A stretch of 22,218 nt of DNA from Sphaerochaeta sp. (lineage in GTDB: Bacteria; Spirochaetota; Spirochaetia; Sphaerochaetales; Sphaerochaetaceae): assembly GCA_003456855.1 (NCBI GenBank), contig DMOO01000131.1:1-22218 (forward strand), given 5' to 3'. Position 1 is the first letter of the stretch. Every line of letters begins with the position of its first letter. Of this stretch, positions 1-14,424 are shown one piece after another. The position numbers and the translations under genes are program-made. A model generated the notes under the pieces. It ran no database searches. It worked only from the letters and a program-made list of their open reading frames with translations, and was not told the origin of the DNA.

Positions 1-518
1 TTGTAGTTCTCAACCTTCGCCTTGGAAGCGTTGTAAACGACGAAATCAGGCTTGAAGTTTGCGAGCTCTTCATCTGTCGGCTGGATGAACATATTCTTAA
101 CGAAATGAGCCTGCCACGCGACTTCCATGATGAAGCGGATAGCCATTCTGGTGTCCTTGTTGGCACCGCAGAATGCATCGACAACGAAGAGTCTCTTGTT
201 TGAGAGCTGCTCGATGGCAATCTTCTTGACTGCTTTCCAAGTCTCCTGGGAAGCTGGGTGGTTATCGTTCTTGTAACCCTCTGTTGTCCACCAGACTGTG
301 TCCTTTGAGTTCTCATCAACAACGATGAACTTATCCTTTGGTGAGCGGCCAGTATAGATACCGGTCATGACGTTGACTGCATTGAGCTCTGTGAGCTGAC
401 CCTTGTCGTAGCCCTCGAGGGCCGGATTCATTTCTTCTTTGAAAAGGAATTCATAAGAAGGATTGTAAACGATTTCCTTTGTGCCTGTGATACCATAAGC
501 TTTCAAATCGACTGCCAT
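1..518 (-). CDS. pckA: Phosphoenolpyruvate carboxykinase (ATP), 5' part only
   Basis: This is the N-terminal 172 residues of ATP-dependent PEP carboxykinase; the rest lies beyond the left edge. The enzyme interconverts oxaloacetate plus ATP with PEP, CO2 and ADP. In fermentative anaerobes it often runs in the carboxylating direction. The protein begins [20 protein letters not shown] and contains [15 protein letters not shown] (near residues 51-65), the substrate-binding stretch of the ATP-type family. [10 protein letters not shown] and [15 protein letters not shown] follow, also typical. The ATG at 516-518 is preceded by AAGGAG about 6 nt upstream, which fixes the start. The 136 bp between this gene and yiaK hold no terminator that I can see. 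An A/T palindrome (626-639) and a TATCAT hexamer near 580 are possible promoter parts, but no convincing -35/-10 pair emerged. Family certain; direction of flux is inference. Confidence 0.96.
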
Positions 519-625
519 GTGTTTCTCCTTATAACGTAATGCAGAGCAGGATTCAGGGCGAAGCCCGCTTGCCTACCGAGTCTATGATACTGAAAAACGG
601 CAAAAACATCACCAGTTTTGACAAT

Positions 626-639
626 AATATTTAAATATT
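626..639. repeat. Perfect 14-bp A/T palindrome upstream of pckA
   Basis: AATATTTAAATATT is its own reverse complement. It lies about 110 bp upstream of the pckA start and 16 bp after the stop of yiaK, in the most A/T-rich part of the gap. It could be an operator or UP-like element for pckA. A/T palindromes also occur by chance, so this is a weak regulatory call. Confidence 0.35.
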
Positions 640-654
640 TCTAACTCTTTTCGC

Positions 655-1677
655 TTAAAGTGCTTGAATATCATCCCAGGCATCTGTGGAGACCATGATG
701 CCCTCCGCCATCGCCTTGGCCCTGTCCTTCAGAACACGCTCTCCAGGATACCTGCTTGGAGAGCCCTCGACAACAGGCTTTGCCTCGTGGACACTGGCCT
801 TGATGGACTTCTCCACCTCGGCGAAGCCGTTCTCGCCAAGAACCTCAGGGTCTATTGCAATGAAGACCTGACAGAGATCGGACTCATCCACATTGTCAGC
901 CTGCATGTGTCTCTCAATGGCGGCGGAGTCGTTTCCGTCTGCCAGCATCGCTGCTGCGGCATCAAGCAGAATCGACATGCTGGAGCCCTTCCAGAAACCC
1001 ATTGGAAGGGAACGTCTGGTCCTCTCGATCTCTCCAGGGTTTGTGGTGAGCTCTCCGTTCTGGTCATAGCCGCCTGCAACAGGAAGCTTCTTGCCTGCCC
1101 TGCGGGTGACCTCAAGCTTTCCGTTGGAGAACTGGGACATTGCGCTGTCCAGCACGAAGTTCTGGCCGTCCTTGCCAGGAACCGCCATGACGAACGGGTT
1201 GTTCCCAATGTTGCACTCAAGGCTGCCCCAGCTTGGCAGATTCAGCCTTGTGTTTGTCCAGCAGATGCCCACAAGTCCCTTGTCAGCTGCAAGCCAGCCG
1301 TAGTAGCCACCGCGCATCCAGTGGTTTGCGTTCCTGAGGGCAACCATTCCTATTCCGAACTTCTTCGCGATCTCGCAGGCGCGGTCCATGCAGATGGATG
1401 CTGCGATGACACCGGCGCACTTGTTGGCATCATAGCGCTCCACAGCCCCCTTCCCTGAAACCAGGACGGGCTTGTTGCCTGGGATTATGGTTCCACAGTC
1501 ATAGTGTCCGATCATCCTCTTGACCCTGAGCACGCTGTGTGAGATCACACCGTCGGCTGCATTGAGGGCGAAGATCTCAGAGACCTTCCTGGCCTCCTCC
1601 TCTCCTGCACCATGCTTGATCAGCTTGTCATGAAGGACATCCTGGAACTGCTTTATTGTGATTCTGGTCTCTGCCAT
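655..1677 (-). CDS. yiaK: YiaK/Ldh2-type NAD(P)H-dependent oxidoreductase (2,3-diketo-L-gulonate reductase-like)
   Basis: Member of the malate/L-lactate dehydrogenase (Ldh2) fold, 340 residues. The best match from memory is E. coli YiaK/DlgD, which reduces 2,3-diketo-L-gulonate to 3-keto-L-gulonate in ascorbate/gulonate breakdown. Visible agreement includes GMVALRNANHWMRGGYYGW, GICWTNTRLNLPSWGSLECNIGNNPF, the LPMGFWKGSSMSILLD stretch, and the ending DAWDDIQAL against DSVWAKIQAL in YiaK. Cytoplasmic enzyme. The frame stays open upstream to 1824. The ATG at 1675-1677 is chosen because GGGAGG lies 6-7 nt ahead and the protein then starts like the family (MAETRITIKQFQDVL). No other yia pathway gene is nearby, so the true substrate could be a related 2-oxo acid. 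Own promoter at 1709-1736 with a dyad over the -10, suggesting regulation. Confidence 0.9.
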   Translation of the reverse strand: MAETRITIKQFQDVLHDKLIKHGAGEEEARKVSEIFALNAADGVISHSVLRVKRMIGHYDCGTIIPGNKPVLVSGKGAVERYDANKCAGVIAASICMDRACEIAKKFGIGMVALRNANHWMRGGYYGWLAADKGLVGICWTNTRLNLPSWGSLECNIGNNPFVMAVPGKDGQNFVLDSAMSQFSNGKLEVTRRAGKKLPVAGGYDQNGELTTNPGEIERTRRSLPMGFWKGSSMSILLDAAAAMLADGNDSAAIERHMQADNVDESDLCQVFIAIDPEVLGENGFAEVEKSIKASVHEAKPVVEGSPSRYPGERVLKDRAKAMAEGIMVSTDAWDDIQAL

Positions 1678-1692
1678 GTGGAACCTCCCGTA

Positions 1693-1722
1693 TTTCCGTC
1701 TGAATAGAATCATAGACGAAAA
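1693..1722. promoter_or_regulatory. Operator-like dyad over the yiaK -10
   Basis: Arms TTTCCGTCT (1693-1701) and AGACGAAAA (1714-1722) are inverted copies matching at 8 of 9 positions, separated by 12 bp. They bracket the -10 hexamer, a position typical of repressor sites. No regulator gene is adjacent. Confidence 0.45.
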
Positions 1723-1736
1723 ACCTTTTCTGTTAA
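1709..1736 (-). promoter_or_regulatory. Promoter of yiaK
   Basis: Reading the minus strand: -35 TTAACA (1736-1731), 16-nt spacer, -10 TATGAT (1714-1709). This predicts an RNA start near 1702 and a leader of about 25 nt that includes the GGGAGG ribosome site. Confidence 0.55.
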
Positions 1737-1798
1737 ATACAAGGGCCCGGCAGAGTCCGGCAATTGAAAAAATACGGCCATAGGAGTACCTTATATCC

Positions 1799-2476
1799 AT
1801 GAAACTGCTCTGCGTATCAGACACTACAAGAAGCCTTGCCTACTCACAGAACGTTGCTGAGATCTACAAGGGTACGGACATCATCTTCTCCTGCGGCGAC
1901 ATGCCGGTGGAGACCCATGACTATCTGGCGACCATGCTCAAGCGTGACGTCTACTATGTCTACGGCAATCACAACCTGAAGACCTTCAAGATGGAGATGG
2001 ACAAGGAGTCGCAGAGATACTCCCCTCTGTCAAACGACATAAACACCCCCTTCTACGGCTTTCTGATAGACGGGAAATGCGTCAGGGACAAGAGAACAGG
2101 GCTTCTGATAGCCGGCCTTGGCGGTTCCATGAAGTACAACGACGGAGACAGCCAGTACACCGAAGCCAAGATGCGCCACAGAATAGCAAGACTCATTCCT
2201 AAACTTTTAGCAAACCGCTTGAAATACGGACGTTATCTTGATATTCTCATCACCCATGCACCGCCGTTCGGCATTGGAGATGGCAAGGACCTTTGCCACA
2301 GAGGATTCAAGTGCTTCTTGAAGTTCATGGACAAGTACCAGCCAAAGTATCTGCTCCATGGACACATACATCTCGATGACCAGAACGCGAACAGAATCAC
2401 ACAGTACAAAAGCACCAAGGTCATAAACGTATATGGGAGCTACCTGGTGGAAGACAACGAGTTAGGAGATAATTGA
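1799..2476 (+). CDS. Calcineurin-like metallophosphoesterase
   Basis: 225-residue cytoplasmic phosphoesterase of the two-metal calcineurin fold. Ordered metal-ligand motifs are D8 (VSDTT), GD at 33-34 (SCGDM), GNHN at 56-59, H153 (ITHAPP) and HGHIH at 187-191. The first motif is normally DxH, and here the His position is Thr (D8-T-T). A variant subfamily without this His exists, so the site may bind metals differently. No signal peptide. The ATG at 1799 has AGGAG upstream, but at a long spacing of about 12 nt. The gene overlaps the next one by 1 nt (TGATG), so the pair is translationally coupled. Substrate unknown; phosphodiester or phosphoprotein hydrolysis is possible. Confidence 0.85.
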   Translation: MKLLCVSDTTRSLAYSQNVAEIYKGTDIIFSCGDMPVETHDYLATMLKRDVYYVYGNHNLKTFKMEMDKESQRYSPLSNDINTPFYGFLIDGKCVRDKRTGLLIAGLGGSMKYNDGDSQYTEAKMRHRIARLIPKLLANRLKYGRYLDILITHAPPFGIGDGKDLCHRGFKCFLKFMDKYQPKYLLHGHIHLDDQNANRITQYKSTKVINVYGSYLVEDNELGDN

Positions 2477-3372
2477 TGGCCGATCACGTCACAACCGCAG
2501 ACGATTTCAACAAGGCACTAAGACATGCCAGATTCCAGGAGCTCTTCTCCACATTCAGATGGCACAATCCAGACCTTCTTTCATTCTACGAAGTGACAAA
2601 GCTGATCAAGCCTGAAGCGGAGTACTACAAAGGGATGCAGACCATCCCTGTGAACAAGATAATCGGATCGGAGAGCCGCTACCACGACTTCTCCTCAGCC
2701 TTCTATCCAAAGAACGTGCATCTTAAGAATCGCTGGGAGAGCATCGATGCAGCGCGCCTAGACGATGTCATCCTTCCACCGATTTCCGTGTACAAGCTCG
2801 GTGAATGGTATTTTGTCAGAGACGGAAACCACAGGGTCTCGGTTGCAAGGACAAAGGGTGTCGAGTTCATCGATGCAGAGGTCGTCGAGCTCACATCCAA
2901 GATCCCTCTTGAGGAGGGAATCACCCTGAACGAGATCAAGAAGCGTGTGGTCAACTACGAGAGACAGCGCTTCATCGAGCAGTTCAATCCGACCTATCTT
3001 CCAATGGACAGAATCGTCTTCACCGCCCCAGGCTCCTACCCGGAGATGGTCAACCACATCAACGTCCACAAGTACTACGTCAACCAGACACTCCCTGACG
3101 AGATGACCTTCGAGGAAGGTGCGAAGAGCTGGTTCAAGAACGTCTATCTCCCGATTGCAGACGCCATAGAGAAGGAGCACCTTCTAATGGAGTTCCCGGG
3201 CCAGACAGAGGCAGACCTCTACATGTGGCTGGTTCGCCGCTGGGATGAGATGAAAAGAATCAATGCCCTGGCTACGGAGAATGATGCTGCAAAAGCCATC
3301 AAGAAAGAGCAGAAGAAGCCATTGATTCACAGATGGGTGAAGTACATACAATCCAAACTGAACAGAAATTAG
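2476..3372 (+). CDS. ParB/sulfiredoxin-fold protein with DGNHR motif, function unknown
   Basis: 298 residues, cytoplasmic. The central part (about residues 55-140) looks like a ParB-N/Srx domain: IPVNKIIGSESR early, then a helix, LPPISVYKLGEWYFVRDGNHRVSVA with DGNHR at 116-120, and FIDAEVVEL. In ParB relatives the matching GxxRxxA box binds a nucleotide. DGNHRVSVA is the variant seen in stand-alone ParB-like proteins. The C-terminal half (NPTYLPMDRIVFTAPGSYPEM onward) is not recognised; it is mostly helical, with MEFPGQTEADLYMWLVRRWDEM. An in-frame TTG at 2473 precedes ATG 2476. I choose the ATG, with AGGAG 7 nt upstream. It is coupled to the phosphoesterase, so the two likely work together. 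It is not a chromosome-partitioning ParB, because there is no HTH and no parA neighbour. Confidence 0.75.
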   Translation: MADHVTTADDFNKALRHARFQELFSTFRWHNPDLLSFYEVTKLIKPEAEYYKGMQTIPVNKIIGSESRYHDFSSAFYPKNVHLKNRWESIDAARLDDVILPPISVYKLGEWYFVRDGNHRVSVARTKGVEFIDAEVVELTSKIPLEEGITLNEIKKRVVNYERQRFIEQFNPTYLPMDRIVFTAPGSYPEMVNHINVHKYYVNQTLPDEMTFEEGAKSWFKNVYLPIADAIEKEHLLMEFPGQTEADLYMWLVRRWDEMKRINALATENDAAKAIKKEQKKPLIHRWVKYIQSKLNRN

Positions 3373-3385
3373 GTTAATATTTCCA

Positions 3386-3415
3386 TTGCACTATTATGAC
3401 AGTCTCTGTTAAAAT
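3386..3415 (+). promoter_or_regulatory. Promoter of the YwaF-like gene
   Basis: -35 TTGCAC (3386-3391), 18-nt spacer, -10 TAAAAT (3410-3415). The predicted start is near 3422, which leaves a short leader containing AGGGGG before ATG 3448. Confidence 0.55.
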
Positions 3416-3447
3416 GTCAGAAAAGCAAAAAGACAGGGGGCTTCATC

Positions 3448-4227
3448 ATGTGGAAGACACAGCCACACCCTTATGGGACATTGCATTTCATCGCAATCGG
3501 ATTCATGGTTATCTGCGCCGCAGTCGGCATCTATCTTGGAATCAAGTACAAAGGCAACAAGTATGACAAGTCCAGGGACAAGGCACTGAGCACACTGGGC
3601 TTTGTGATCATCGGACTTGAGGCCTTCAAGATCATCTTCAGGATCGCCACACATGAGAACGTGGACCTTACTCTGATCTCATTCCAGATCTGCTCCATCC
3701 CGATGTACCTGCTCCCTTGGATCGCCTACATGAAGGAAGGGAAGCTCAAGAAGGCCTTCCTGGGCTACGTCTCGTTCCAGGCCTTCGTATCAGCCTTCTT
3801 CTACTTTGTGAAACCCAATGCAATCTTCACAACCAAGTATGTGATCATCTCACTGCATTCAATCGTCTGGCACAGCCTTCTGGTTGCAATGTCCCTCTTC
3901 GTCATGGTCAGCTATGGCCTTCTCAGCAAGAAGGGCCGCGAGTACCTGATCCTTGGAAACCTTCTGTGGATCGGAACAGCCTTCATTGCAATGATCCTTG
4001 ATGTGATTCTCAGAAAAGCAGTTCCCGGATCAGCCGTTGACCTCTTCTACATTGCACCTGGTTCAACCTTCAAGTACCCTCTTCTGAGCCTGATCTTCCC
4101 GAAGCCGGAGCCTTATGCACTGTACTTCGTGTCCTTCCTGATCTACTACACCCTGGGCTGCATAATCATCTACGCAGTCGGATGCGGCATCACGGCCTTG
4201 GCAACAAGAGGAAAGAGAAAGAACTGA
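3448..4227 (+). CDS. YwaF/TIGR02206-like integral membrane protein
   Basis: 259 residues with about seven hydrophobic segments (near 14-29, 49-65, 80-93, 100-117, 126-155, 170-186 and 230-250) and a basic tail (TRGKRKN). The pattern of an N-terminal HPYGTLHFIAIGF followed by LISFQICSIPMYLLPWIAY around residues 75-93 is characteristic of the TIGR02206/YwaF family of bacterial membrane proteins. Their biochemical role is not established. ATG 3448 has AGGGGG about 9 nt upstream and its own promoter. The gene converges on the PQ-loop-like gene with only 8 bp between the stop codons and no visible terminator there. Substrate or partner unknown. Confidence 0.75.
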   Translation: MWKTQPHPYGTLHFIAIGFMVICAAVGIYLGIKYKGNKYDKSRDKALSTLGFVIIGLEAFKIIFRIATHENVDLTLISFQICSIPMYLLPWIAYMKEGKLKKAFLGYVSFQAFVSAFFYFVKPNAIFTTKYVIISLHSIVWHSLLVAMSLFVMVSYGLLSKKGREYLILGNLLWIGTAFIAMILDVILRKAVPGSAVDLFYIAPGSTFKYPLLSLIFPKPEPYALYFVSFLIYYTLGCIIIYAVGCGITALATRGKRKN

Positions 4228-4235
4228 TTATCGGA

Positions 4236-4520
4236 TTATTTGTCGGCTTTCCTGTCCAGGCTTCTGTTTCTGAAGTAAAGGCAGAAGTCGACGAACACCA
4301 TGCAGAAGTTCAGGATGTAGAAGAACATCACATACCACTTGAATGATGGGGCTGTGAGCTTGGAGATTATTCCGCATACATAGCCGAACAGGATCAGCAC
4401 CAGGAACCAGAGGCTCTTGCCCTTTGCGGTTCTTGACTTGATTGATTTGATGACATTCATCGGCCATGAGAAGCCGAAGCTTATAAGCATAAGAATCTCG
4501 CACAGTTCAGTGATCTTCAT
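4236..4520 (-). CDS. Small PQ-loop/SemiSWEET-like membrane protein
   Basis: 94 residues with three hydrophobic helices (about 3-18, 37-55 and 62-80) and a short basic end (RNRSLDRKADK). The stretch GFSWPMNVIKSIKSRTAKGKSLWFLVLILFGYVCG resembles the PQ-loop/SemiSWEET pattern in which a W-P-x-N helix end is followed by a basic loop and GKSLxF. SemiSWEETs are three-helix sugar transporters that work as dimers; related small proteins have unknown cargo. The start is ATG 4518-4520, preceded by GGAGG at 7-nt spacing. That Shine-Dalgarno is part of the right arm of a terminator-like hairpin (4521-4554), and an internal promoter lies just upstream. The frame is open further upstream to 4607, but those residues have no ribosome site and overlap the lipoprotein gene's end. 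Function inferred from pattern only. Confidence 0.75.
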   Translation of the reverse strand: MKITELCEILMLISFGFSWPMNVIKSIKSRTAKGKSLWFLVLILFGYVCGIISKLTAPSFKWYVMFFYILNFCMVFVDFCLYFRNRSLDRKADK

Positions 4521-4554
4521 AAAAAAACCTCCGAAGCAACTCGCCTCGGAGGTT
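4521..4554 (-). terminator. Intrinsic terminator overlapping the downstream gene's Shine-Dalgarno
   Basis: On the minus strand the RNA reads AACCTCCGA (4554-4546), an 11-nt loop, TCGGAGGTT (4534-4526), then the rest of a run of seven U, and then immediately the ATG of the PQ-loop-like gene. The 9-bp perfect stem plus U tract is a standard factor-independent terminator for the lipoprotein transcript. Its right arm contains the GGAGG used by the next gene, so the same hairpin would also block translation of read-through RNA. Confidence 0.8.
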
Positions 4555-4583
4555 ATTTTAATTCTCAGTTTAGCATCAGTCAA
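4555..4583 (-). promoter_or_regulatory. Internal promoter ahead of the PQ-loop-like gene
   Basis: -35 TTGACT (4583-4578), 17-nt spacer, -10 TAAAAT (4560-4555). The -35 overlaps the stop codon of the lipoprotein gene. The predicted start, near 4546-4548, falls inside the left arm of the terminator hairpin. RNA made here would lack most of that arm and keep GGAGG single-stranded. Confidence 0.65.
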
Positions 4584-4668
4584 TGCTGCCGGATGCGCAG
4601 GAAACAAGTGATACTGAGAGAAGCAGAACCAATGCTGCTGTAAGGATTGTACTTGTAAGGTGTCTCAT
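4576..4668 (-). CDS. 30-residue micro-lipoprotein (entericidin-like size)
   Basis: A very short gene. It starts at ATG 4666-4668 with GGAGGG about 6 nt upstream. The product begins MRHLTSTILTAALVLLLSVS and ends LVSCASGSID. It has a basic N-terminus, a hydrophobic core (about residues 8-22), and a good lipobox L21-V-S-C24. After signal peptidase II cleavage only CASGSID (7 residues) would remain on the lipid anchor. Promoter (4689-4717), ribosome site, lipobox and terminator all lie in the right order, which is stronger support than the length alone. No family assigned; its size and layout recall entericidin-type lipopeptides, but I see no sequence identity to claim that. It could be a signal lipopeptide (by analogy with peptide pheromones cut from lipoprotein signal sequences) or an envelope-stress product. 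Confidence 0.75.
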   Translation of the reverse strand: MRHLTSTILTAALVLLLSVSLVSCASGSID

Positions 4669-4688
4669 TCTAAGCCCTCCATGCTTTA

Positions 4689-4717
4689 AACATAGAGGGT
4701 TGTGGATCATTGCTCAA
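4689..4717 (-). promoter_or_regulatory. Promoter of the micro-lipoprotein gene
   Basis: -35 TTGAGC (4717-4712), 17-nt spacer, -10 TATGTT (4694-4689). Predicted start near 4682, giving a leader of about 14 nt that carries GGAGGG. Confidence 0.55.
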
Positions 4718-4758
4718 GAAAAGCATTCATCAAAACACATTTCTCCATAAAGAGGTTT

Positions 4759-5553
4759 TCAGTCTTTGTCCGTGAGCAGCATGCGGTCCGTCTGGAGTTC
4801 GCTTCCGGCCTTTGTCTTGAACAGGTCGACCAGACCGGAGACCGTTAGTGAAGACTTGGCCTCGCCCTCCACGTCAAGGATGGCCTTTCCCTGATTCATC
4901 ATCAGAAGCCTGTTTCCAAGGTCAATCGCGCTCTGCATGTTGTGAGTGACCATCATGCAGGTGATGTTGTCCTTCTCGACTATGCGCTTTGTCAGGTCCA
5001 GGACCTTCTCCGCTGTTCCGGGGTCCAGGGCTGCGGTGTGCTCGTCCAGGAGCAGGATCTTCGGAGGGTTTATCGTGGCCATCATCAGAGTCAGAGCCTG
5101 GCGCTGACCTCCTGAGAGAAGGCCTACAGGCTGCTTCATGCGATCCTCAAGACCCATTCCAAGCTGGGAGAGCTTCTCTCTGAAGAGTTCCCTGTCCTGC
5201 TTTGAGACCCTTGCCAGCCAGCCGCCATGGCCTGCTGCAAGTGCAAGGTTCTCCTCTATGCTCATATTAGGTGCGCTTCCACGCATTGGGTCCTGGAAAA
5301 GGCGTCCGATGGACTTTGCCCTCACGTGGTCAGGCGTGAAGGTTATGTCCTTGCCGTCGATGAAGATCTTTCCGGAGTCCACGATGAAGTTTCCGCAGAT
5401 TGCATTGAACAGAGTGCTCTTTCCTGCGCCGTTTGCACCGATTATCGTAACGAAGTCGCCCTTGTTCACGCGAAGCGAGAAATCATCGAGAGCCTTCTTG
5501 GCGTCCTGGGTTCCAGCATTGAATGTCTTTGAGATGTTAAGAATATCAAGCAT
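4759..5553 (-). CDS. ABC transporter ATP-binding protein (partner of an ABC_sub_bind-family binding protein)
   Basis: 264-residue cytoplasmic ATPase. Motifs: Walker A GANGAGKS (39-46), Q-loop FQDP (86-89), signature LSGGQ (146-150), Walker B LLLD with catalytic E171, D-loop ALDP, and switch His204 (VTHNM). The usual DEP after Walker B is DEH (E171-H172); DEHTAALDP is, as I recall, normal for this transporter subgroup. The start ATG 5551-5553 lies one nucleotide after the permease stop (TGAAATG), so it is translated by coupling. Last gene of a binding protein, permease, ATPase operon. The substrate is not fixed by sequence. Relatives with this gene order include the predicted tryptophan importers TrpXYZ of streptococci, but others carry other cargo. 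No convincing terminator follows it. Confidence 0.9.
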   Translation of the reverse strand: MLDILNISKTFNAGTQDAKKALDDFSLRVNKGDFVTIIGANGAGKSTLFNAICGNFIVDSGKIFIDGKDITFTPDHVRAKSIGRLFQDPMRGSAPNMSIEENLALAAGHGGWLARVSKQDRELFREKLSQLGMGLEDRMKQPVGLLSGGQRQALTLMMATINPPKILLLDEHTAALDPGTAEKVLDLTKRIVEKDNITCMMVTHNMQSAIDLGNRLLMMNQGKAILDVEGEAKSSLTVSGLVDLFKTKAGSELQTDRMLLTDKD

Positions 5554-5554
5554 T

Positions 5555-6463
5555 TCAGGCCCTCCCCCGCTTCTTAAGCTTTCTCATGAACAGAGGGAAC
5601 CTCTGCTGCAGATACGGACCTGAGATTGCAATGACGACGATGACAGAGGACACAAGCTTCAGCATGAAGGCCGGCATGTTCAGTCTGAGTGCTACAGTGT
5701 AGACCAGACGGAAGATGAAGGCTCCAAGCACCGCACCCACAAGTCTGAAGGTGATCGGGCGGCGCTTTCCGATGAAGGTGTTTCCGATCAGAAGCGAAGC
5801 CAGTGCAATGGTGAGCATTCCGGATCCTATGTTCACGTTGACCGACTTCTGGTACTGGGCCAGAAGGCAGCCCGAGAGTGCGGTGAACGAGTTGGAGATG
5901 CAGAGGCCGATGATCGTGGTCTTAACAGGGTTGATCGATGAGGATCTGACCATGTCAGGGTTGTCACCTGTGGCCCTGATTGCAAGACCGATGCGGGTCT
6001 TCAGGAAAAAGGCCAGGAAAACCACCACCAAGGCGGTGAACAGGACAATGACTATAAGCTTGTACTGAGGACCAAGGAAGGATGCACCAAGAAGGGCCTT
6101 GGCCTTTGTGAAGATGGTCTCGGTCTTGTTCATGTTAAGCAGTGAGGAGTTGCCCATCACAGCGATGTTGATCGAATAGAGTCCGGTGTTGACTACGATT
6201 CCGGACAGAAGGCTGTCCACACCCATCTTCGTCTGGAGGAATGCAGTGACGAAGCCTGAAAGTGCGCCGGCCCCCATTGCGGCCAGGAGGGCCAGGAAGG
6301 GATGCCCCGAGAGTGCAACTACAGCACCAACGGCCGCTCCGAATGTGAAGCAGCCGTCCGTGGAGAGGTCACATACTCCCAGCATGCTATAGCTGAGAAA
6401 CAGAGCCAGGACTGTGAGCGAGCTCATCAGTCCCAGTTCAAGTGCGGTCAGTATTAAATCCAT
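5555..6463 (-). CDS. ABC transporter permease (BPD_transp_2 type)
   Basis: 302-residue inner-membrane permease with about eight hydrophobic segments and a basic C-terminus (RKLKKRGRA). The N-terminal part (SYSMLGVCDLSTDGCFTFGAAVGA) and the cytoplasmic loop around KTRIGLAIRATGDNPDMVRSSSI are typical of branched-chain amino acid/ribose-like permeases (BPD_transp_2); the latter region couples to the ATPase. A single permease gene suggests a homodimer. ATG 6461-6463 overlaps the binding-protein stop by one base (TGATG). It acts with the flanking ATPase and binding protein in uptake of an unknown small molecule. Confidence 0.9.
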   Translation of the reverse strand: MDLILTALELGLMSSLTVLALFLSYSMLGVCDLSTDGCFTFGAAVGAVVALSGHPFLALLAAMGAGALSGFVTAFLQTKMGVDSLLSGIVVNTGLYSINIAVMGNSSLLNMNKTETIFTKAKALLGASFLGPQYKLIVIVLFTALVVVFLAFFLKTRIGLAIRATGDNPDMVRSSSINPVKTTIIGLCISNSFTALSGCLLAQYQKSVNVNIGSGMLTIALASLLIGNTFIGKRRPITFRLVGAVLGAFIFRLVYTVALRLNMPAFMLKLVSSVIVVIAISGPYLQQRFPLFMRKLKKRGRA

Positions 6464-7491
6464 CAGAAACTTTCAGCGGTGTTGATGCTCTGCACCTTTG
6501 TTGCGTAAGGTGCGAACAGTGCGCTAACCTCCTCGAATGATGTTCCAAGTGCGGCGGCTGTCTCGACGTTGACCGTTGCTGTTCCATTGTCGAATGTCAT
6601 GACTGGGACCTCGGCAGGGTTCTTTCCGTTGACCAGGATGTCAGCTGCCATGGTTGCCGTCTCACGACCCAGGTTCGCATAGTCGACACCGTATCCAAGG
6701 AATGCGCCGTTCAGTGCGAATGAGTCCGCTCCAGTGTAATGCGGGATCTTCGCCTCTGCAAGAGCCTCGTAGATGGAAAGCTCGGCTGTCATGATTGTAT
6801 TGTCGGAAGGTGTGAAGATTGCATCGACACCATCGGCGATAAGTGCCTGGGCTGCCAGGACGACCTCATCGACTGTGGTTCCGGTGCGCTCAACGTACTC
6901 CACTCCCTTTGCTGCAAGGTACTCCTTGGCCTGCTTGATTGCAGTTGTTGAAGCATCCTGTCCAAGGTCGAAGAGAAGTCCGACCTTCTTTGCGTTTGCC
7001 TTGAAGGCGAAGATCAGGTTCATGACTGCCGTTGTGTCCAGGTAGTCAGATGTTCCTGTGATGTTGCTGCCCGGCTTCTCGAGGGAATCGACAAGGCCTG
7101 CTGCCAGAGGATCCGAGACTGCTGCGAAGACCACAGGAATCTGGTTCTCTTCCGTGGCTGCCTGCATTGCCATTGCAACTGGGGTAGCGACACCGATCAT
7201 CAGATCGACCTTGTTGGCGGCGAAGTTTGCGATTATCTGGTTCAGGACGTTGGCATCTGCGTTGCAGTTGTCATAGTAGATTGTGAACTTGACGCCCTGC
7301 TCCGCCTCTATCTCTGAAAGTCTGCTCTGGATGTTGTCGCAGATCTGATTCAGTGATGCGTCATCAACGAAGTTGCAGATTCCAATCCTATATGTGTTGG
7401 CATCCTCGGACTTGGCCTCAGGTGCGCCACTGGCGAAAACAATACCTGCAAAAAGCAGTGCGATAAGCATAACAGCAAAAATCTTCTTCAT
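6463..7491 (-). CDS. ABC transporter substrate-binding protein (ABC_sub_bind family)
   Basis: 342 residues, exported. The signal peptide MKKIFAVMLIALLFAGIVFA is followed by SGAPEAKSED. The likely cut is after VFA (residue 20), with no lipobox Cys, so it would be periplasmic rather than a lipoprotein. The mature part follows the PF04392 (ABC_sub_bind, TrpX-like) pattern: YRIGICNFVDDASLNQI, KVDLMIGVATPVAMAMQAAT, IPVVFAAVSDPLAAGLV, GSNITGTSDYLD, KVGLLFDLGQDAS, DAIFTPSDNTIMTA and GYGVDYANLGRETA. The start ATG 7489-7491 has AGGAGG 8 nt upstream; the frame remains open to 7590, but that part overlaps the promoter and operators. First gene of the operon, with strong promoter and twin operators at 7528-7590. 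The cargo is inferred only as an amino acid or similar small organic compound. Confidence 0.92.
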   Translation of the reverse strand: MKKIFAVMLIALLFAGIVFASGAPEAKSEDANTYRIGICNFVDDASLNQICDNIQSRLSEIEAEQGVKFTIYYDNCNADANVLNQIIANFAANKVDLMIGVATPVAMAMQAATEENQIPVVFAAVSDPLAAGLVDSLEKPGSNITGTSDYLDTTAVMNLIFAFKANAKKVGLLFDLGQDASTTAIKQAKEYLAAKGVEYVERTGTTVDEVVLAAQALIADGVDAIFTPSDNTIMTAELSIYEALAEAKIPHYTGADSFALNGAFLGYGVDYANLGRETATMAADILVNGKNPAEVPVMTFDNGTATVNVETAAALGTSFEEVSALFAPYATKVQSINTAESF

Positions 7492-7527
7492 TTCAATTCC
7501 TCCTGCAGCGGTGCTCTGAATCAATCT

Positions 7528-7545
7528 GTTTCTGTGTACAGTAAC
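7528..7545. promoter_or_regulatory. Operator site O1 of the ABC uptake operon
   Basis: GTTTCTGTGTACAGTAAC, an 18-bp near-palindrome with 8-bp arms (7 of 8 matching) around GT. It lies just downstream of the predicted RNA start, about +10 to +27, and is the inverted counterpart of O2. Confidence 0.7.
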
Positions 7546-7561
7546 ATCGCTGACAGTGAGC

Positions 7562-7590
7562 ATGTTACTGTGTACAGAAACAAGTGTCAA
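7562..7590 (-). promoter_or_regulatory. Promoter of the ABC uptake operon
   Basis: -35 TTGACA (7590-7585, full consensus), 17-nt spacer, -10 TAACAT (7567-7562). Predicted start near 7555, giving a leader of about 65 nt. Operator O2 fills the spacer and part of the -10. Confidence 0.75.
7564..7581. promoter_or_regulatory. Operator site O2 of the ABC uptake operon
   Basis: GTTACTGTGTACAGAAAC, the inverted partner of O1 (the two match almost fully when one is flipped; only the central GT/AC differs). It covers the -10 and spacer of the promoter. The two centres are 36 bp apart. Binding here would block RNA polymerase directly. Confidence 0.7.
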
Positions 7591-7651
7591 CGGGTTTTAG
7601 AGAAATTCTCGTTTTTTTTCAGATTGCATCCATTTTTCGGGAAAAAGGGGT

Positions 7652-8320
7652 TCAGGAGGTGCCCAAAAGCCAGCAGAAGCCCTTTGCGGTTCTGATGTCA
7701 GGCTCTGTGAAGTGGTTCCCTTCGTTCCATTCAAGGATTGATTCTATTTTCGAATTTCCAAAGATCTCCATCTGGGTTCTGATGCAATCCCCCACCCTGG
7801 CCATGACCTGGTTTCGGGTCTTCTCCTCCTTCTTCCCAAGGCTCAGGTAACATTTCTTGGAAAGGAAGGTGTTGGCCTTTGCATAGTCCATCCAATCGGG
7901 GAACCACACTGAAGGTGATGCTGCGCAGATTCCGTCAAAATCCTTCTGATAGCCTGCCCAGAGGGCGAAGAAGGCCGCAAGGGAGTAACCTCCAAGATAG
8001 ATGGAAGGCTTGTCTGAAAGCTCACCGCTTTTCATTGCATCTGGAATCAAGGTCTCTGTGATTGTCCTGAGGGTGTCCTCGGCCCCGTCTCCGAAGCCTT
8101 CATTGCCCCAGACGGCAGGAGCCTTCCACGGAGAGAGGTCCCCGTTCCAGGACCCCACCTTCAGTGCAAGAAGCATGAAAGAGGCTTGTGTATGTTCCTT
8201 TATATAATTGAACTCGGAGTCCAGAGTCGATGCATCATGCTCATCCACACACTGGACAAGCAGATTGTCCACAGGACGGCCTTGGAAAGAACGGGTCTTA
8301 CTTATGATGTCAAATGACAT
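7652..8320 (-). CDS. Alpha/beta-hydrolase-fold esterase, putative
   Basis: 222 residues, cytoplasmic (no signal peptide). The nucleophile elbow is GGYSLA with S113 preceded by a beta strand (SIYLGGYSLAAFFALWAG). A later CAASPSVWFP stretch resembles Fes/esterase-D-like hydrolases. The catalytic His is probably H203 in WNEGNHFTEPD near the C-terminus. The acid residue is not obvious. The ATG at 8318-8320 overlaps the end of ktrA by 11 nt and has only a weak ribosome site, so translation probably depends on coupling to ktrA. Substrate unknown, and its link to K+ transport may be only operon position. Confidence 0.75.
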   Translation of the reverse strand: MSFDIISKTRSFQGRPVDNLLVQCVDEHDASTLDSEFNYIKEHTQASFMLLALKVGSWNGDLSPWKAPAVWGNEGFGDGAEDTLRTITETLIPDAMKSGELSDKPSIYLGGYSLAAFFALWAGYQKDFDGICAASPSVWFPDWMDYAKANTFLSKKCYLSLGKKEEKTRNQVMARVGDCIRTQMEIFGNSKIESILEWNEGNHFTEPDIRTAKGFCWLLGTS

Positions 8321-8954
8321 TTGAGACGTCCGACTTCTTCATTATGACCAGCAGGGTGTCGGTTCCCTCGAGATTCCTCTCAGGATCAGGATTCTCGATG
8401 TCCTTGCCGTTGATCTTGACCCCTATGATGTTCATGCCGAACTTCCTTCTGAGATTCAGCTCAATCAGGTTGTGCCCTATCCATGCTGGTTTGGGCACAA
8501 TCTCCACCAGGCTCAGAACATCCTGAATGTTGAAGAAGTCTCTGATGTCCGGTGAGATCAGGCGGAAGGCGTTGCGCTTTGCGCTCTCCTCCTCTGGATA
8601 GATGACCTCGTCTGCACCAACTCTCTGCAGAATCTGTCCCATCAAGTGGTCCTTGGCCTTGGCCACAACGTGCCTTACGCCAGCCTCCTTGGAGACCATG
8701 CAGCAGAGGATGCTGGCCTCCATTGATGTGGACATGGTGACTATCACGGTGTCCATGTCGGCGACACCGAGCTTCTTTATGGATTCTGGGTCGCAGAGAT
8801 CGGCCACGGCGGCACGTTCCACCTGGTCCTTGACCTGGTCGACAAGGTCCTCGTCCTGGTCAACGGCCAGAACCTCGGCTCCCATCTTCGAAAGCTCGAC
8901 GCAGATGCTCTGACCGAACTTTCCCATCCCCAAGACTGCAAATGACTTTCTCAT
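8310..8954 (-). CDS. ktrA: KtrA/TrkA-type regulatory subunit of K+ uptake system
   Basis: 214-residue cytoplasmic RCK protein. The N-terminal Rossmann domain has GMGKFG (G9-x-G11-x-x-G14) and an acidic residue at the end of the second strand (D32 in AVDQDEDLV), as in nucleotide-binding RCK domains. The C-terminal RCK-C domain runs from about residue 135 (DVLSLVEIVPKPAWIGHNLIELNLRRKFGMNIIGVKINGKDI). The length matches KtrA/KtrC; TrkA proper is about twice as long. It gates the membrane subunit encoded 17 nt upstream, probably as an octameric ring that responds to ATP/ADP or c-di-AMP (family knowledge). Ribosome site AGGGG about 10 nt before ATG 8954. Confidence 0.93.
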   Translation of the reverse strand: MRKSFAVLGMGKFGQSICVELSKMGAEVLAVDQDEDLVDQVKDQVERAAVADLCDPESIKKLGVADMDTVIVTMSTSMEASILCCMVSKEAGVRHVVAKAKDHLMGQILQRVGADEVIYPEEESAKRNAFRLISPDIRDFFNIQDVLSLVEIVPKPAWIGHNLIELNLRRKFGMNIIGVKINGKDIENPDPERNLEGTDTLLVIMKKSDVSNVI

Positions 8955-8971
8955 ATTCTCATACCCCTAAA

Positions 8972-10366
8972 TCAACCAACGGTGAAATTGCCTTCGGCGA
9001 AGGTTACACCCTCTTTCCTGGATCTTCCCGCCTCGAAGAACAGAACCAGCGTGATCGGTCCGATTCTGCCAAGGAACATGGAGAAGATCACAACAACCCG
9101 TCCAAATGCGTTCAGGCTTGCAGTCAGACCCTGTGACAGTCCAACGGTGCCTGTTGCACTGAACATCTCATATAGAACAGCAATAGCCGGGAGATCGTTT
9201 GTGGCTATTATCAGCACAATGCCTATCATTGTGACCATGAAGCTGACAGCCACGACAGCTGCGGCCTTTACAATCATCATGTAGCTTATGACTCTCTTGT
9301 GGAGAACGGCGTTCTTTCTTCCACGGACAAAGGCGACGGCGTTCATGAACAGAATCAGCACCGTGATGGTCTTCACACCTCCGGCGGTACCCACGGGGGA
9401 ACCTCCGATGAACATGAACAGAAGACCAAGAACGGCGGTTGCGTCTGTCAGGTTCTCCTGTGCTATGGTCGCAAAGCCTGCGGTTCTCCACGTCACCGAC
9501 TGGAAGAAGCTGTTGACGATCCTGTCCCAGCGGCTCATGCCCATCAAGGTGTCAGGATTGAAGCGCTCCAGCACGTAGACCAGGATAGCTCCCAGCAGAA
9601 TCAGGAATGTGGTCATTCCAAGAACAGCCTTGGAGTGCTCTCCCAGACGCCTGAAATAGAGGAAAGGACCGTACTTTCTCTTCACTGCCGTCTTAGCCTT
9701 GTCCCAAAGGTCGAACCAGACTATGAAGCCCAGACCACCAAGGATTATCAGGGCCATGGTGACCACAAGGATATAGGTGTCGTTTCTGAAAGGAATCAGG
9801 CTGTCAGGCCCGAGAATGTCGATTCCCGCATTACAGAATGCCGATATTGCATGGAAGACCGAGTACCAGATCCCCCTTCCCACCCCGTAGAGCGGAATGA
9901 AGCGGACCATGCAGAGCAGCGCTCCTATGAACTCGATTATGAATACATCCTTGACGACTCTCTTGGTGAAGGTCGGAAGTCCGACCATGGAATCCAGGTT
10001 GAAGTTCTCCTGTACCAGCATCATGAAGCGCAGAGAGTAGCGGCGCTTGAACACAGAAAGCAGGAACGAGGCCAGAGTGACCATTCCGAAACCGCCGAAC
10101 TGGATCAGGAACAGGATCACGATCTTCCCGAAGAGAGACCAATGGATATAGGTGGGCACCACAACCAGGCCTGTCACACAGACGGATGTGGTTGCGGTGA
10201 ACAGAGCTGTGAGAAAGCTTGTATGCTGACCCTCTGCAATTGCAAAGGGCAGAAGCAGAAGAAGTGTGCCGACAGCTATGAGCAGAAGGAAGCACCCCAC
10301 AATGATGTGGGGAGTTCGAGCCTTTTTGCTCCTCCACTGTGCAAGTTCTTCACTGGGTCTCTTCAC
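8972..10366 (-). CDS. ktrB: KtrB/TrkH-type K+ (Na+-coupled) transporter membrane subunit
   Basis: 464-residue integral membrane protein with four M1-P-M2 repeats. The four filter regions are visible: TSVCVTGL (60-67), SAFCNAG, VTWRTAGFATI and SATGTVGLSQG, each with the conserved filter Gly. The hydrophobic segments start at about residue 20. The start is GTG 10364-10366 with AAGGA at 6-nt spacing; no ATG gives a complete first helix. It pairs with KtrA just downstream. K+ uptake supports osmotic and pH balance. The loop VGTAGGVKTITVLILF between the third and fourth repeats is the gating-loop region in KtrB. Confidence 0.94.
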   Translation of the reverse strand: MKRPSEELAQWRSKKARTPHIIVGCFLLLIAVGTLLLLLPFAIAEGQHTSFLTALFTATTSVCVTGLVVVPTYIHWSLFGKIVILFLIQFGGFGMVTLASFLLSVFKRRYSLRFMMLVQENFNLDSMVGLPTFTKRVVKDVFIIEFIGALLCMVRFIPLYGVGRGIWYSVFHAISAFCNAGIDILGPDSLIPFRNDTYILVVTMALIILGGLGFIVWFDLWDKAKTAVKRKYGPFLYFRRLGEHSKAVLGMTTFLILLGAILVYVLERFNPDTLMGMSRWDRIVNSFFQSVTWRTAGFATIAQENLTDATAVLGLLFMFIGGSPVGTAGGVKTITVLILFMNAVAFVRGRKNAVLHKRVISYMMIVKAAAVVAVSFMVTMIGIVLIIATNDLPAIAVLYEMFSATGTVGLSQGLTASLNAFGRVVVIFSMFLGRIGPITLVLFFEAGRSRKEGVTFAEGNFTVG

Positions 10367-10401
10367 TGTAATTCCTTGTCCCCCAATCCGGAATCATGGC
10401 A

Positions 10402-10407
10402 ATTATA
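10402..10407 (-). promoter_or_regulatory. Possible -10 of the ktrB promoter
   Basis: TATAAT on the minus strand, about 36 nt before the GTG start and inside the 50-bp gap after the M42 peptidase gene. No good -35 is found at 16-18 nt, so this is only a partial promoter match. Confidence 0.4.
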
Positions 10408-10416
10408 CAACAACAA

Positions 10417-11463
10417 TCAGATATTCAGGTAGCCTTTGATGACCTTCATAGTGTTATAAACACCGTCAATGTGGCTTCTTTCGTATCCGTGGCTGGCGTA
10501 GACACCCGATCCAATCAGTCCATGCTTGATGTCATAGCCTGCCCTGAGGGTCGCCTCGACATCGGAGCCGTAGAACGGATAGACGTCTATGGCGTAGTCA
10601 GCCTTCTCCTTCTTCGCAGCCTTGACCAGGGCATCTGTGACGTCATAGTCATATGGTCCGCCTGAGTCCTTTGCGCAGATCGAAGCCTGTCTCTCGGTGC
10701 ACTGGAGCCCTATTCCGACACAGCCCATGTCAACGCTGATAGCCTCCTTCACATCCTCCGGAATGGAGGTGCTGCCACCATGGCCGACCTCTTCGTAGAC
10801 TGTGATCAGAAGGTAAACCCTTCTTAGAAGCTCGATCTTGTTGTCCTTGATGTACTTTGCAACGCCAAGGAGGATTCCGACTGAGAGCTTGTCGTCAAGG
10901 TAGCGGCTCTTGATGTAGCCGCTCTTAGTGATGTGGGCCCTTGGGCACGGGCAGACGAAGTCACCAACGTCCAGACCAAGCTTGCGCACATCGTCTGCGG
11001 ACTTCACATCCTCGTCCAGGACGACCTCCACGGTGTTGAAAGTCCTTTCCGTGGAGTCCAGGTCCTTGTTGACGTGTGAAGAGGCGTTGATCAGCTGGAT
11101 CGTGCCCTCGAAGACCTCTCCGTCACGGCTGTAGACGTTTACGTTCTCGGCCTCTGTGTTGCAGGCCTTGAGTCCTCCGATGTTGGAGATCCTGAGCCTT
11201 CCGTTGCCCTTGATCTCAGCGATAACGGCACCAAGTGTGTCTGCATGGGCGGCGAAAAGCACGGCTCCGTTGTCTGAGTCCCTTCCTCCAAGGTCAACAA
11301 GTACTGCACCCTTGTTTGTAAGCTTCGCCTTGTATCCGAGGCCTGAAAATGCATCCAGGACCCATGCTGCGGCCTTTTTGGTGAAGCCGGAAGGGCTGTC
11401 GATGTTGAGCAGCTCTATAGCCTTGCTTGACGCATACTCTGCGTATTCTCTCTTGAGTTCCAT
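10417..11463 (-). CDS. M42-family metallo-aminopeptidase
   Basis: 348 residues, the usual size for M42 (TET-type, FrvX/YsdC-like) aminopeptidases, which form dodecameric cytoplasmic particles and trim peptides. Metal and catalytic positions are visible: H73 and D75 in AAHADTLG, D190/D191 in SRYLDDKLSV (bridging Asp), the catalytic E224 with E225 in VYEEVGHGG, D245 in SVDMG, and a C-terminal His in YASHGYERSH (H325 or H331). ATG 11463 has GGAGGG 6-7 nt ahead. It is third in a minus-strand run behind the glutaredoxin-like gene (9-nt gap). The link to that gene and the CmpB-like gene is positional only. Confidence 0.92.
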   Translation of the reverse strand: MELKREYAEYASSKAIELLNIDSPSGFTKKAAAWVLDAFSGLGYKAKLTNKGAVLVDLGGRDSDNGAVLFAAHADTLGAVIAEIKGNGRLRISNIGGLKACNTEAENVNVYSRDGEVFEGTIQLINASSHVNKDLDSTERTFNTVEVVLDEDVKSADDVRKLGLDVGDFVCPCPRAHITKSGYIKSRYLDDKLSVGILLGVAKYIKDNKIELLRRVYLLITVYEEVGHGGSTSIPEDVKEAISVDMGCVGIGLQCTERQASICAKDSGGPYDYDVTDALVKAAKKEKADYAIDVYPFYGSDVEATLRAGYDIKHGLIGSGVYASHGYERSHIDGVYNTMKVIKGYLNI

Positions 11464-11472
11464 AAATCCCTC

Positions 11473-11796
11473 CTAGCAGCCCTTTCTATTGCTCAGACTG
11501 CATGCCGGGGCGGCAGGGCCGTCCTCCGAGAGAACCTCATGACCCATCTCACGGATCATGCTCTCCCAGTCTGTGAAGACCTTTCCGGACTCATCAATGC
11601 ATGCAGGGATGCCGATGTCATTGATTGCCTTAAGGCGGTCGAAGACAGGCTCCGTGTCCCTGTAGATCAGGAAGGTCTTCAGGTTCCTGAGACTCTCATT
11701 GATGTCATAATACTCATATTCCACCCCGTATGTCTTGAAGTTAAGCTCGCAGTTGCGGCAGTCAGGACACATCTTGCTTCCATAAACCTTTATCAT
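11473..11796 (-). CDS. Glutaredoxin-like protein with CPDC active site
   Basis: 107-residue thioredoxin-fold protein. The redox site is C10-P-D-C13 with a third Cys at 16 (CPDCRNC) right after the first strand (MIKVYGSKM). A cis-Pro position is probably in GIPACID (about residue 63-65). The C-terminus holds two more cysteines (C99 and C107, CSLSNRKGC) beyond the normal fold, which could make an internal disulfide or bind metal. Ribosome site GGAGG about 7 nt before ATG 11796. It sits between the CmpB-like gene (15-nt gap) and the M42 peptidase. Function inferred as thiol-disulfide exchange. Confidence 0.85.
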   Translation of the reverse strand: MIKVYGSKMCPDCRNCELNFKTYGVEYEYYDINESLRNLKTFLIYRDTEPVFDRLKAINDIGIPACIDESGKVFTDWESMIREMGHEVLSEDGPAAPACSLSNRKGC

Positions 11797-11811
11797 AATC
11801 CACCTCCAATG

Positions 11812-12555
11812 TTATTTTGCCTTCTTTGCATGGACCTTCTTCTCGAACTGGTCCTTCATCATCCTCAAATGCTCGTTGATGCCCAGATCGGTCTTGAAGG
11901 GCTGGAAGAAGCGATACTTCTTCTTTGCCTCTTCTCTTTTATCTCTGATATTTGTTTTAATAGCCTCAAAGCGAACAATGACATCATTTTCTTCAGCGAA
12001 TTCTTTAAGTTTGGCTATAATCTGCGTTGCATGGACCACATCTATGATGAAAACGCCGTAGAACACCCCGATGAAGAAGGAGAATGCCAGGTTCTGTGCA
12101 AGCCAAGCCAGGGCATCAATGATGTGCGGATGTATCAGGAAGTAGTACAAGGCACCCAGGATGGCCCAGGCCAGTGAGAACTTGGGGCAGATTATGCCCT
12201 GGATGTTGCCCCACTCCTTGCTGTAGTCCCAGAGTCTGACCTTGTAGACCTTCAGGGAGAGGATTCCGGCTATGTATTCGATGACCGTCATGCAGACTGC
12301 CATGACGGTAAACAGAATCAGCTTTGAAGCCAAAGGGCTTAGATTTGCCAGATGACGCTCCTGTATTGCAATGACATAGAGGAAGCTCAGGCCAAATCCG
12401 TACAGAGGAAGATAAGGTCCTGTGCAGAAGCCAGGATTGATCCACTTTCTTTCAGGGTTGTTCTTTGAGAAGAACCTCCTGAACAGAACCTCAAGGCACC
12501 ACCCGAAGGATGAGCCTATGAAGAACAGAAAAGCAAGAACAAGAAAAAAGCTCAT
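11812..12555 (-). CDS. CmpB-type membrane protein (ABC_trans_CmpB / DUF1113)
   Basis: 247 residues. The first ~170 contain about five hydrophobic segments and the family's typical sequence: FIGSSFGWCLEVLFRRF near the start, WINPGFCTGPYLPLYGFG, TVIEYIAGI, RLWDYSKEWGNIQGIICPKFSLAWAILG. These match the PF06541 membrane proteins annotated as putative ABC permeases, although no ATPase is adjacent. The last ~75 residues are a charged, soluble, probably coiled helix tail rich in Lys and Glu (IIAKLKEFAEENDVIVRFEA). ATG 12553-12555 has no Shine-Dalgarno, but a promoter ends 6 nt before it, so the mRNA is probably leaderless. First gene of the run with the glutaredoxin-like and M42 genes. Confidence 0.82.
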   Translation of the reverse strand: MSFFLVLAFLFFIGSSFGWCLEVLFRRFFSKNNPERKWINPGFCTGPYLPLYGFGLSFLYVIAIQERHLANLSPLASKLILFTVMAVCMTVIEYIAGILSLKVYKVRLWDYSKEWGNIQGIICPKFSLAWAILGALYYFLIHPHIIDALAWLAQNLAFSFFIGVFYGVFIIDVVHATQIIAKLKEFAEENDVIVRFEAIKTNIRDKREEAKKKYRFFQPFKTDLGINEHLRMMKDQFEKKVHAKKAK

Positions 12556-12561
12556 GGGCCA

Positions 12562-12590
12562 ATTCTACACTCGCTTTCAAAAAGTGGCAA
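12562..12590 (-). promoter_or_regulatory. Promoter giving a probably leaderless CmpB-like transcript
   Basis: -35 TTGCCA (12590-12585), 17-nt spacer, -10 TAGAAT (12567-12562), then only 6 nt to the ATG at 12555. The -35 begins right after the stop codon of the upstream ATC-hydrolase-like gene. Confidence 0.65.
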
Positions 12591-12591
12591 C

Positions 12592-13158
12592 TCAGATGCT
12601 CTTCGTCCTCTCCCAGCCGTCTCCGGCATCGGTCTTGTGGCGGATGAACAGGAAGTCACAGACATCTCCGCCCTGGCAGAGGGTCTTTGTTCTCTTGAAG
12701 TCGGTGTAAGGAAGGCTTCCGTAGTTGATGATGTCTGCGTGGCAGCACATTGCACCAAGCTTCAGAAGTCCCCTCTTTCCAAGGATCTTGGCATAGATGC
12801 ACTCGTTGCACTCGAAGTGGAACAGGTCCTTTGGATCGTCCTTGTGCCAGGTGTAGCGCCAGCCGTAGCCCGACTTCTTGCTGAAGCCTGCAGGGACCAC
12901 CTTCTTCATCAGAGGCAGGAAGAACTTGAGCTTTGCCATCTTCTGCATCTTTGAAGGGTCAAGGAACTTCCACATCTCCTCGGAGACCGTCCTGTAGGCC
13001 TCCTCCTCTGTCTTTCCGTGCTGCTGGAGAACCTCGTACATGGCAATGGAGGTCAGAATCTGGGCCATGTGCTCGTAGTTTCCGTTGTCGCAGTACTCCT
13101 TCTCCTCAACAAGAAGCTCTTCCATCCTCTTGTAGATGTCCTGCTGGATGTCAACCAT
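12592..13158 (-). CDS. ATC-hydrolase-like protein (PF14196 family)
   Basis: 188 residues. The C-terminal half resembles the L-2-amino-thiazoline-4-carboxylic acid hydrolase family: FHFECNECIYAKI, then GAMCCHADIINYGSLPYTDFKRTKTLCQGGDVCDFLFIRHK, with cysteines near residues 117, 120, 138, 139, 161 and 167. The proven member opens a thiazoline ring on the way to L-cysteine, but most family members are of unknown function, so the name is not a function call. The frame is open to a GTG at 13233. I choose ATG 13156-13158, because the -10 at 13183-13188 would start RNA near 13176, AGGA precedes this ATG, and the longer form would overlap the divergent MFS gene. A second family member lies at 21707-22218. 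Confidence 0.78.
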   Translation of the reverse strand: MVDIQQDIYKRMEELLVEEKEYCDNGNYEHMAQILTSIAMYEVLQQHGKTEEEAYRTVSEEMWKFLDPSKMQKMAKLKFFLPLMKKVVPAGFSKKSGYGWRYTWHKDDPKDLFHFECNECIYAKILGKRGLLKLGAMCCHADIINYGSLPYTDFKRTKTLCQGGDVCDFLFIRHKTDAGDGWERTKSI

Positions 13159-13182
13159 GTCTTCTAGAAATCCTGAAGATTC

Positions 13183-14414: not shown

Positions 14415-14424
14415 GAGGTATAAC

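Follow-up and report, generated by a model that had tools for sequence, protein, structure and literature searches.

A hairpin combining terminator-like features, a Shine-Dalgarno sequence and a promoter match at a gene boundary in Sphaerochaeta

Genes and sequence elements at the boundary

The window, by which we mean the whole 22,218-nucleotide stretch of contig DMOO01000131.1 from a Sphaerochaeta sp. assembly (GCA_003456855.1), carries on its minus strand a three-gene ABC transporter operon with matches to PF04392, PF02653 and PF00005, followed in turn by a putative micro-lipoprotein gene, the element that is the subject of this study and a gene for a PQ-loop-like membrane protein. The last gene of the operon (positions 4759-5553) encodes the transporter ATPase (PF00005, E 3.3e-30). 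The micro-lipoprotein gene (4576-4668), recognized as an open frame with its own Shine-Dalgarno (SD) sequence, comprises 30 codons and encodes a signal peptide with what we take to be a lipobox; searches of 61 genomes returned no convincing homologue (best E 0.011). The PQ-loop-like gene (4236-4520) encodes 94 residues and has 1682 relatives, and the closest named relatives found through this protein are Spirochaetales metagenome-assembled genomes (MAGs) from rumen; the window probably derives from a spirochaete of the gut. We use the PQ-loop name tentatively: 13 of the 22 relatives that were aligned match PF04193 (best E 0.001), and the protein of the window itself is matched by DUF3267 alone, below the cut-off (E 0.0039). 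At its far end, the gene converges with a TMEM164-family gene on the plus strand (3448-4227; PF14808), with 8 bases between the two stop codons and no entry for the interval (4227-4236) in our list of terminator-like sites.

The element occupies positions 4521-4583 of the minus strand, and every sequence feature reported there by the first-pass annotation was recovered by direct reading at the position given. A promoter scan places TTGACT-17-TAAAAT at 4555-4583, with the -35 hexamer at 4583-4578, overlapping the lipoprotein TGA (4578-4576) by one base, and the -10 hexamer at 4560-4555. The predicted RNA start, at 4546-4548 (position 4548 being +7 from the -10), falls inside the left arm of a hairpin that RNAfold extends over 4526-4554, with a 5-nt loop. 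The hairpin had been described as having 9 base pairs; it is present, with a longer stem of 12 (4554-4543 with 4537-4526), beyond which additional A-U pairs link the -10 region to the U run. Its right arm contains GGAGG (4528-4532), the SD sequence of the PQ-loop-like gene, 7 nt before the ATG. The T7 tract at 4521-4527 serves both as the U run of the terminator and as the spacer between SD and start codon, and the ATG (4520-4518) follows it directly.

With its G+C-rich stem and subsequent U run, the element has the composition of an intrinsic terminator. Over 61 nt the predicted fold has a free energy of -25.0 kcal/mol (z -5.6), a value equalled by none of 200 shuffled sequences, and among the 16 terminator-like sites listed for positions 1-20000 of the window this hairpin has the most base pairs and the most G-C pairs. 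The number of such sites is not in excess (16 versus 16.3 ± 4.0 in shuffles). The promoter agrees with the consensus at 10 of 12 positions and is by itself unremarkable, as matches of at least 9 occur 19 times in 20 kb versus 12.8 ± 3.8 in shuffles.

Predicted accessibility of the Shine-Dalgarno sequence

It had been proposed that RNA arriving from upstream would be untranslatable, while RNA from the internal promoter would be open for translation. Folding the two transcript forms bore out the predicted difference. In RNA beginning at 4680, 4620 or 4560, the SD sequence has a predicted unpaired probability of 0.00 and opening the stretch from SD to AUG costs 18.4-18.9 kcal/mol, versus 6.5, 5.0 and 7.8 kcal/mol in RNA beginning at 4548, 4547 and 4546, where the SD is predicted to be reachable because a start inside the left arm removes the 5' strand of the stem. 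For RNA beginning at 4552 or 4550, the predicted cost is still 13.8 or 9.6 kcal/mol; in these models, release requires a start at about 4549 or later, and the position of the -10 hexamer predicts such a start. The description "open for translation" was nevertheless too strong, since the freed SD remains partly paired (predicted unpaired probability 0.07-0.22), with the U run and the first codons taking part in the folds.

A second predicted SD-locking hairpin, of 11 bp, lies at 4675-4699 and holds the GGAGGG of the micro-lipoprotein gene in its right arm. It is accompanied by a weak promoter-like sequence, TTGAGC-17-TATGTT (4689-4717; 8 of 12 consensus matches), recognized from the sequence alone and below the threshold of the promoter scan, whose -10 hexamer lies in the left arm. 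The predicted cost of opening the micro-lipoprotein SD falls from 15.3-15.9 kcal/mol in longer RNA to 5.3-5.4 kcal/mol in RNA from the supposed start.

The presence of this second hairpin just upstream, together with the location of the element, flanked by a short open frame and by a transporter-like gene, would suit a regulated leader, that is, an attenuator, a riboswitch-like RNA or a protein-bound structure that opens on a signal, with the micro-lipoprotein frame as a possible leader peptide. We regard this explanation as improbable. The window has no match to an Rfam family at gathering score, the folds that we made revealed no alternative stem, the hairpin begins 21 nt past the lipoprotein stop codon, and the closest comparable locus, described below, retains the hairpin and lacks the short frame.

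Conservation in a relative and recurrence at other genes

Among the relatives found, only one, a Spirochaetales MAG from roe deer rumen (locus L001) whose PQ-loop protein is 87% identical, shares the upstream neighbour with the window, and there the ABC ATPase orthologue lies directly upstream of the element. The promoter is kept as TTGACT-17-TACAAT, with six of six -35 positions, five of six -10 positions and the 17-base spacing. Both 11-base hairpin arms are identical (22/22), whereas 12 of 17 bases of the promoter spacer and three of five of the loop agree. Arm identity alone is weak evidence, because the first 40 PQ-loop codons likewise agree at 35 of 40 third positions; at fourfold sites, identity is 21/30 in the PQ-loop gene and 56/121 in the ATPase gene. 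The micro-lipoprotein gene is absent from L001, as is the stretch with the second hairpin, and the frame in which TTGACT is read differs between the window, where it belongs to the end of the lipoprotein, and L001, where it belongs to the ATPase stop, so that coding does not explain its conservation.

These data bear on whether the promoter is a false match, with the gene expressed from elsewhere. The frequency of comparable matches in shuffled sequence agrees with such a chance origin, which we nonetheless find hard to credit, given that both hexamers and their spacing have been kept while fewer than half of the fourfold sites of the adjoining ATPase gene have.

In contrast to the stem and promoter, the U tract has not been kept in L001, where TTTCTA (UUUCUA in RNA) replaces U7. 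Since stem and promoter stay where the U tract is lost, the comparison suggests that in that lineage the SD lock has been conserved and termination has not. This also weighs against a simpler reading, in which a conventional intrinsic terminator lies next to a conventional gene, the promoter is real, and the hairpin has no translational role, its arm including the SD owing to a short intergenic space and to the commonness of CCTCC/GGAGG stems. The strong stem and the U7 run are what this reading expects, and in the survey described below 36 of 76 sites with hairpin, T run and ATG are not followed by a frame of 100 residues, so that the layout by itself is frequent where no gene follows. It does not account for the loss of the U run in L001 with stem and promoter intact, or for the stem of another gene family, which varies in sequence with its pairing kept around a fixed -10; moreover, the predicted block of the SD is strong whether it was selected or not. 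We therefore consider an ordinary terminator unlikely, though far from negligible. Of the proposed switch combining terminator and lock, the lock-and-release half gains comparative support from L001, from an unrelated gene and from the survey, in which nested promoters are far commoner before genes than at other sites, while the terminator half is weakened in L001.

The conservation is restricted to this neighbourhood. While L001 keeps promoter, spacing and stem, the hairpin is missing from PQ-loop orthologues with other neighbours: in a scan of 80 PQ-loop loci, the layout at the PQ-loop start occurs solely in L001 and in none of L002-L080, and the upstream sequences of L002-L006 (among the 10 of 80 loci inspected) have no such hairpin by eye. 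In L002 and L003 (86% identity), the ABC ATPase lies on other contigs. The ATPase of the window's operon has matches in 47 of 61 genomes, and one of the 15 downstream sequences read contains the element, namely L111, on the same contig as L001. Downstream of the ABC ATPase in L124 we observed a terminator with an SD-like sequence in its left arm (CCGGAGG...CCTCCGG) followed by eight T.

The layout recurs, with covariation in its stem, at an unrelated ABC-ATPase gene. Orthologues of this ATPase were gathered by protein, irrespective of the element; 41 of 100 genomes matched, and 30 loci were cut out and read. The lock is found in 20 of the 30: of the 18 loci with at least 70% identity 17 have it, and so do three with 59-61% (L322-L324). 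It is absent from the other 10, including L314 (71%). Among the 17 with at least 70% identity, the -10 hexamer in the loop reads TATAGT in 16 cases and TATATT in the remaining one; in 13 of them TTGGCA lies 17 bases upstream. The mean predicted cost of opening the SD falls from 15.0 kcal/mol in read-through RNA to 4.8 kcal/mol in RNA from the gene's own start, with single cases up to 9.4. In the orthologues L317, L318 and L320, TATACT is found six bases upstream of the ATG, as would suit a leaderless transcript, where others have the hairpin with the -10 in its loop.

In the arms of this family, letters change while pairing is kept, with some G-T pairs. Stem pairs are retained in 123 of 136 cells, versus 58-74 when the arms are slid against each other and a mean of 109.5 (maximum 117) in 2000 permutations, a count that is not a probability, as the 17 rows are related, 14 are distinct and kinship is uncorrected. 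The layout was anchored by hand at the -10, at CCTC/CCTT and at GGAGG, MAFFT having put some rows out of register, which fixes the outer SD pairs in advance and gives the unslid version an advantage. What informs is therefore the three pairs just outside or inside the fixed ones, which are paired in 9, 13 and 16 of 17 rows, with 2, 4 and 4 types of pair, respectively.

A search pattern without any promoter term, consisting of a hairpin and GGAGG followed by a T run and an ATG, was applied to 196 genomes ranked as relatives of the L001 genome. It matches at 77 places in 56 genomes (76 distinct sites), versus 13 matches of the reversed control pattern. Sites were assigned to a gene when an open frame of at least 100 residues followed, some of these frames perhaps being spurious, and a promoter was called nested when its start lay inside the hairpin and its score was at least 8. 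Nested promoters occur at 22 of 40 gene sites, or 9 of 23 protein families, versus 1 of 36 non-gene sites (Fisher p 4.9e-4 on families). Because non-gene sites have shorter loops, shuffle expectations were also used, and these are 2.35 of 23 families and 1.19 of 36 non-gene sites. With a looser score of 6, nested promoters are counted at 28 of 40 gene sites (12 of 23 families) and at 6 of 36 non-gene sites (p 0.008); at score 8, 14 of the 23 families have no nested promoter. A codirectional frame ends just upstream of 17 of the 22 gene sites with a nested promoter versus 7 of the 18 without, a comparison in which the ABC family weighs heavily.

Two geometries are found. In one, which is that of the window, the -10 hexamer directly adjoins the left arm; it occurs at a membrane transport protein gene (L266 and L379) and at a methyltransferase gene (L272). 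In the other, the -10 lies in the loop, as at the genes for the ABC ATPase, a short-chain dehydrogenase, a malate/lactate dehydrogenase and a periplasmic binding protein. An SD-locking hairpin with TTGCCA-17-TATATT in its loop was also seen at L234 (minus strand, 12720; genome G003), and further SD-locking hairpins with a T-rich tail before the start codon at L197 (minus strand, 523; G001) and L241 (minus strand, 4092; G003). Two genomes (G015 and G034) contain a repeated palindromic element with ACCTCC...GGAGGT arms, in several copies on several contigs.

The recurrence informs one more explanation, in which a dimeric repressor binds the inverted repeat as a DNA operator that overlaps the promoter, and RNA pairing is a by-product. 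The palindrome is identical in the window and L001, so that DNA and RNA readings are indistinguishable there. The ABC-ATPase arms, with their changes that keep pairing and their G-T pairs, suit RNA better than a fixed operator, and in the survey the repeat goes together with an SD, a T run and an ATG; an operator is accordingly a very improbable explanation.

Among 118 relatives of a Clostridia genome, 50 likewise contain the pattern, counted here by itself and irrespective of promoters. In these genomes we observed a repeated element with a 13-bp hairpin, TAGAAT in the loop, GGAGG in the right arm, a T run and the ATG of a 111-residue protein, at L397 (1501-1547; genome G197), at five places in G301 and at G199 (contig C6 and contig C20, 56-102). 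The location of copies at contig ends suggests a mobile element. The 111-residue protein of L397, which has no Pfam match at 1e-5, is presumably an IS3-type OrfA-like protein.

Finally, we called 1005 gene starts by script in the window and in parts of G001, G003, G013 and G032, a crude procedure that leaves many starts doubtful. A locking stem is present at 45 of them. Nested promoters are found at 10 of 45 locked versus 161 of 960 other starts at score 8 (p 0.32), at 6 of 45 versus 81 of 960 at score 9 (p 0.27) and at 4 of 45 versus 27 of 960 at score 10 (p 0.046), two of these last four being the window and L001 themselves; over the 1005 starts, the association between lock and promoter is thus not significant at two of the three thresholds (scores 8 and 9). 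Compared with shuffles, locked starts at -15 kcal/mol number 3 versus 0.5 in the window, 9 versus 3.8 in G001 and 14 versus 5.0 in G003, and at -8 kcal/mol 4 versus 2.45, 27 versus 25.5 and 34 versus 32.6, respectively. The excess of locked starts is confined to the strongest stems. The layout is rare, a recurrent local solution and not a rule.

Known systems and a proposed insulating role

The nearest parallel that we found is in bacteriophage T4. According to a review (PMC3014915), the leaders of genes e (lysozyme), soc, 49 and I-TevI form hairpins that sequester the SD of longer transcripts in a helix, a promoter within the DNA of the 5' strand of the helix yields RNA that lacks this strand and is translated, and for gene e the longer transcripts show a 100-fold reduction. 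As far as that text describes the gene e lock, the element of the window resembles it in the predicted burial of its SD in longer RNA, the defining property of a lock that depends on the start site, and in a promoter whose RNA lacks the 5' strand. It differs from the T4 systems described there in that its promoter, with sigma-70-type hexamers instead of those of a phage late promoter, lies between chromosomal genes, in that its strong stem and U run could also terminate transcription, and in having no temporal phage programme; the T4-like features are known here from sequence and predicted folds. The element would work like the T4 case, yet we do not class it as a member.

Fold-back inhibition in IS10/Tn10 follows the same principle: read-in transposase RNA hides the ribosome-binding site, and the transposase's own RNA starts inside the fold. 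Unlike in IS10, the gene protected in the window encodes a PQ-loop-like membrane protein and not the transposase of a mobile element, and a terminator is added. The element shares with intrinsic (Rho-independent) terminators the G+C-rich stem followed by U7, and departs from a plain terminator in that its right arm is the SD of the next gene, its U run, not kept in L001, is the spacer of that gene, and the next promoter overlaps its left arm. Like translational riboswitches and attenuators, it places an SD or terminator hairpin in control of the next gene; unlike these, it has no aptamer or Rfam match, and the position of the RNA start, not a ligand, would make the choice. Release by the start site is known; what sets the element apart is its fusion with a terminator, a sigma-70-type promoter and a setting between chromosomal genes of the ordinary kind. 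None of the titles and abstract openings listed from open-access papers mentions a promoter lying within a terminator that hides an SD.

We propose that the element is probably a compact gene boundary, an insulator against read-through expression of the PQ-loop-like gene. RNA from the ABC operon and micro-lipoprotein gene would form the hairpin and mostly stop at the U run, and RNA that reads through would have its SD buried, such that the PQ-loop-like gene would hardly be translated. Firing of the gene's own sigma-70-type promoter would start RNA inside the left arm, leaving the 5' strand of the stem missing and the SD reachable. More tentatively, the union of terminator, promoter and SD lock in one hairpin may represent a recurrent class of chromosomal gene-boundary insulator, arising repeatedly in two geometries and giving transcriptional and translational protection within 40-60 bases; we hold this broader proposal to be possible, at somewhat less than even chances.

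Terminators are leaky, and how adjacent genes in compact genomes are kept independent is mostly treated as a question of where RNA ends. If the proposal is true, an SD-hiding hairpin that is undone by the RNA start site would make leaked RNA harmless without a regulator. It would also account for gene starts that, to judge from folds including upstream sequence, seem closed to translation. The signature of the arrangement in sequence is searchable in any genome, and the element could serve as a compact insulator part for synthetic biology.

Another boundary on the minus strand of the window (17850-17932) combines a terminator-like hairpin (17914-17891), a T tract overlapping TTTACA-17-AATAAT (17886-17858) and an ATG at 17850; its SD sequence lies outside the stem, unlike that of the element at 4521-4583.
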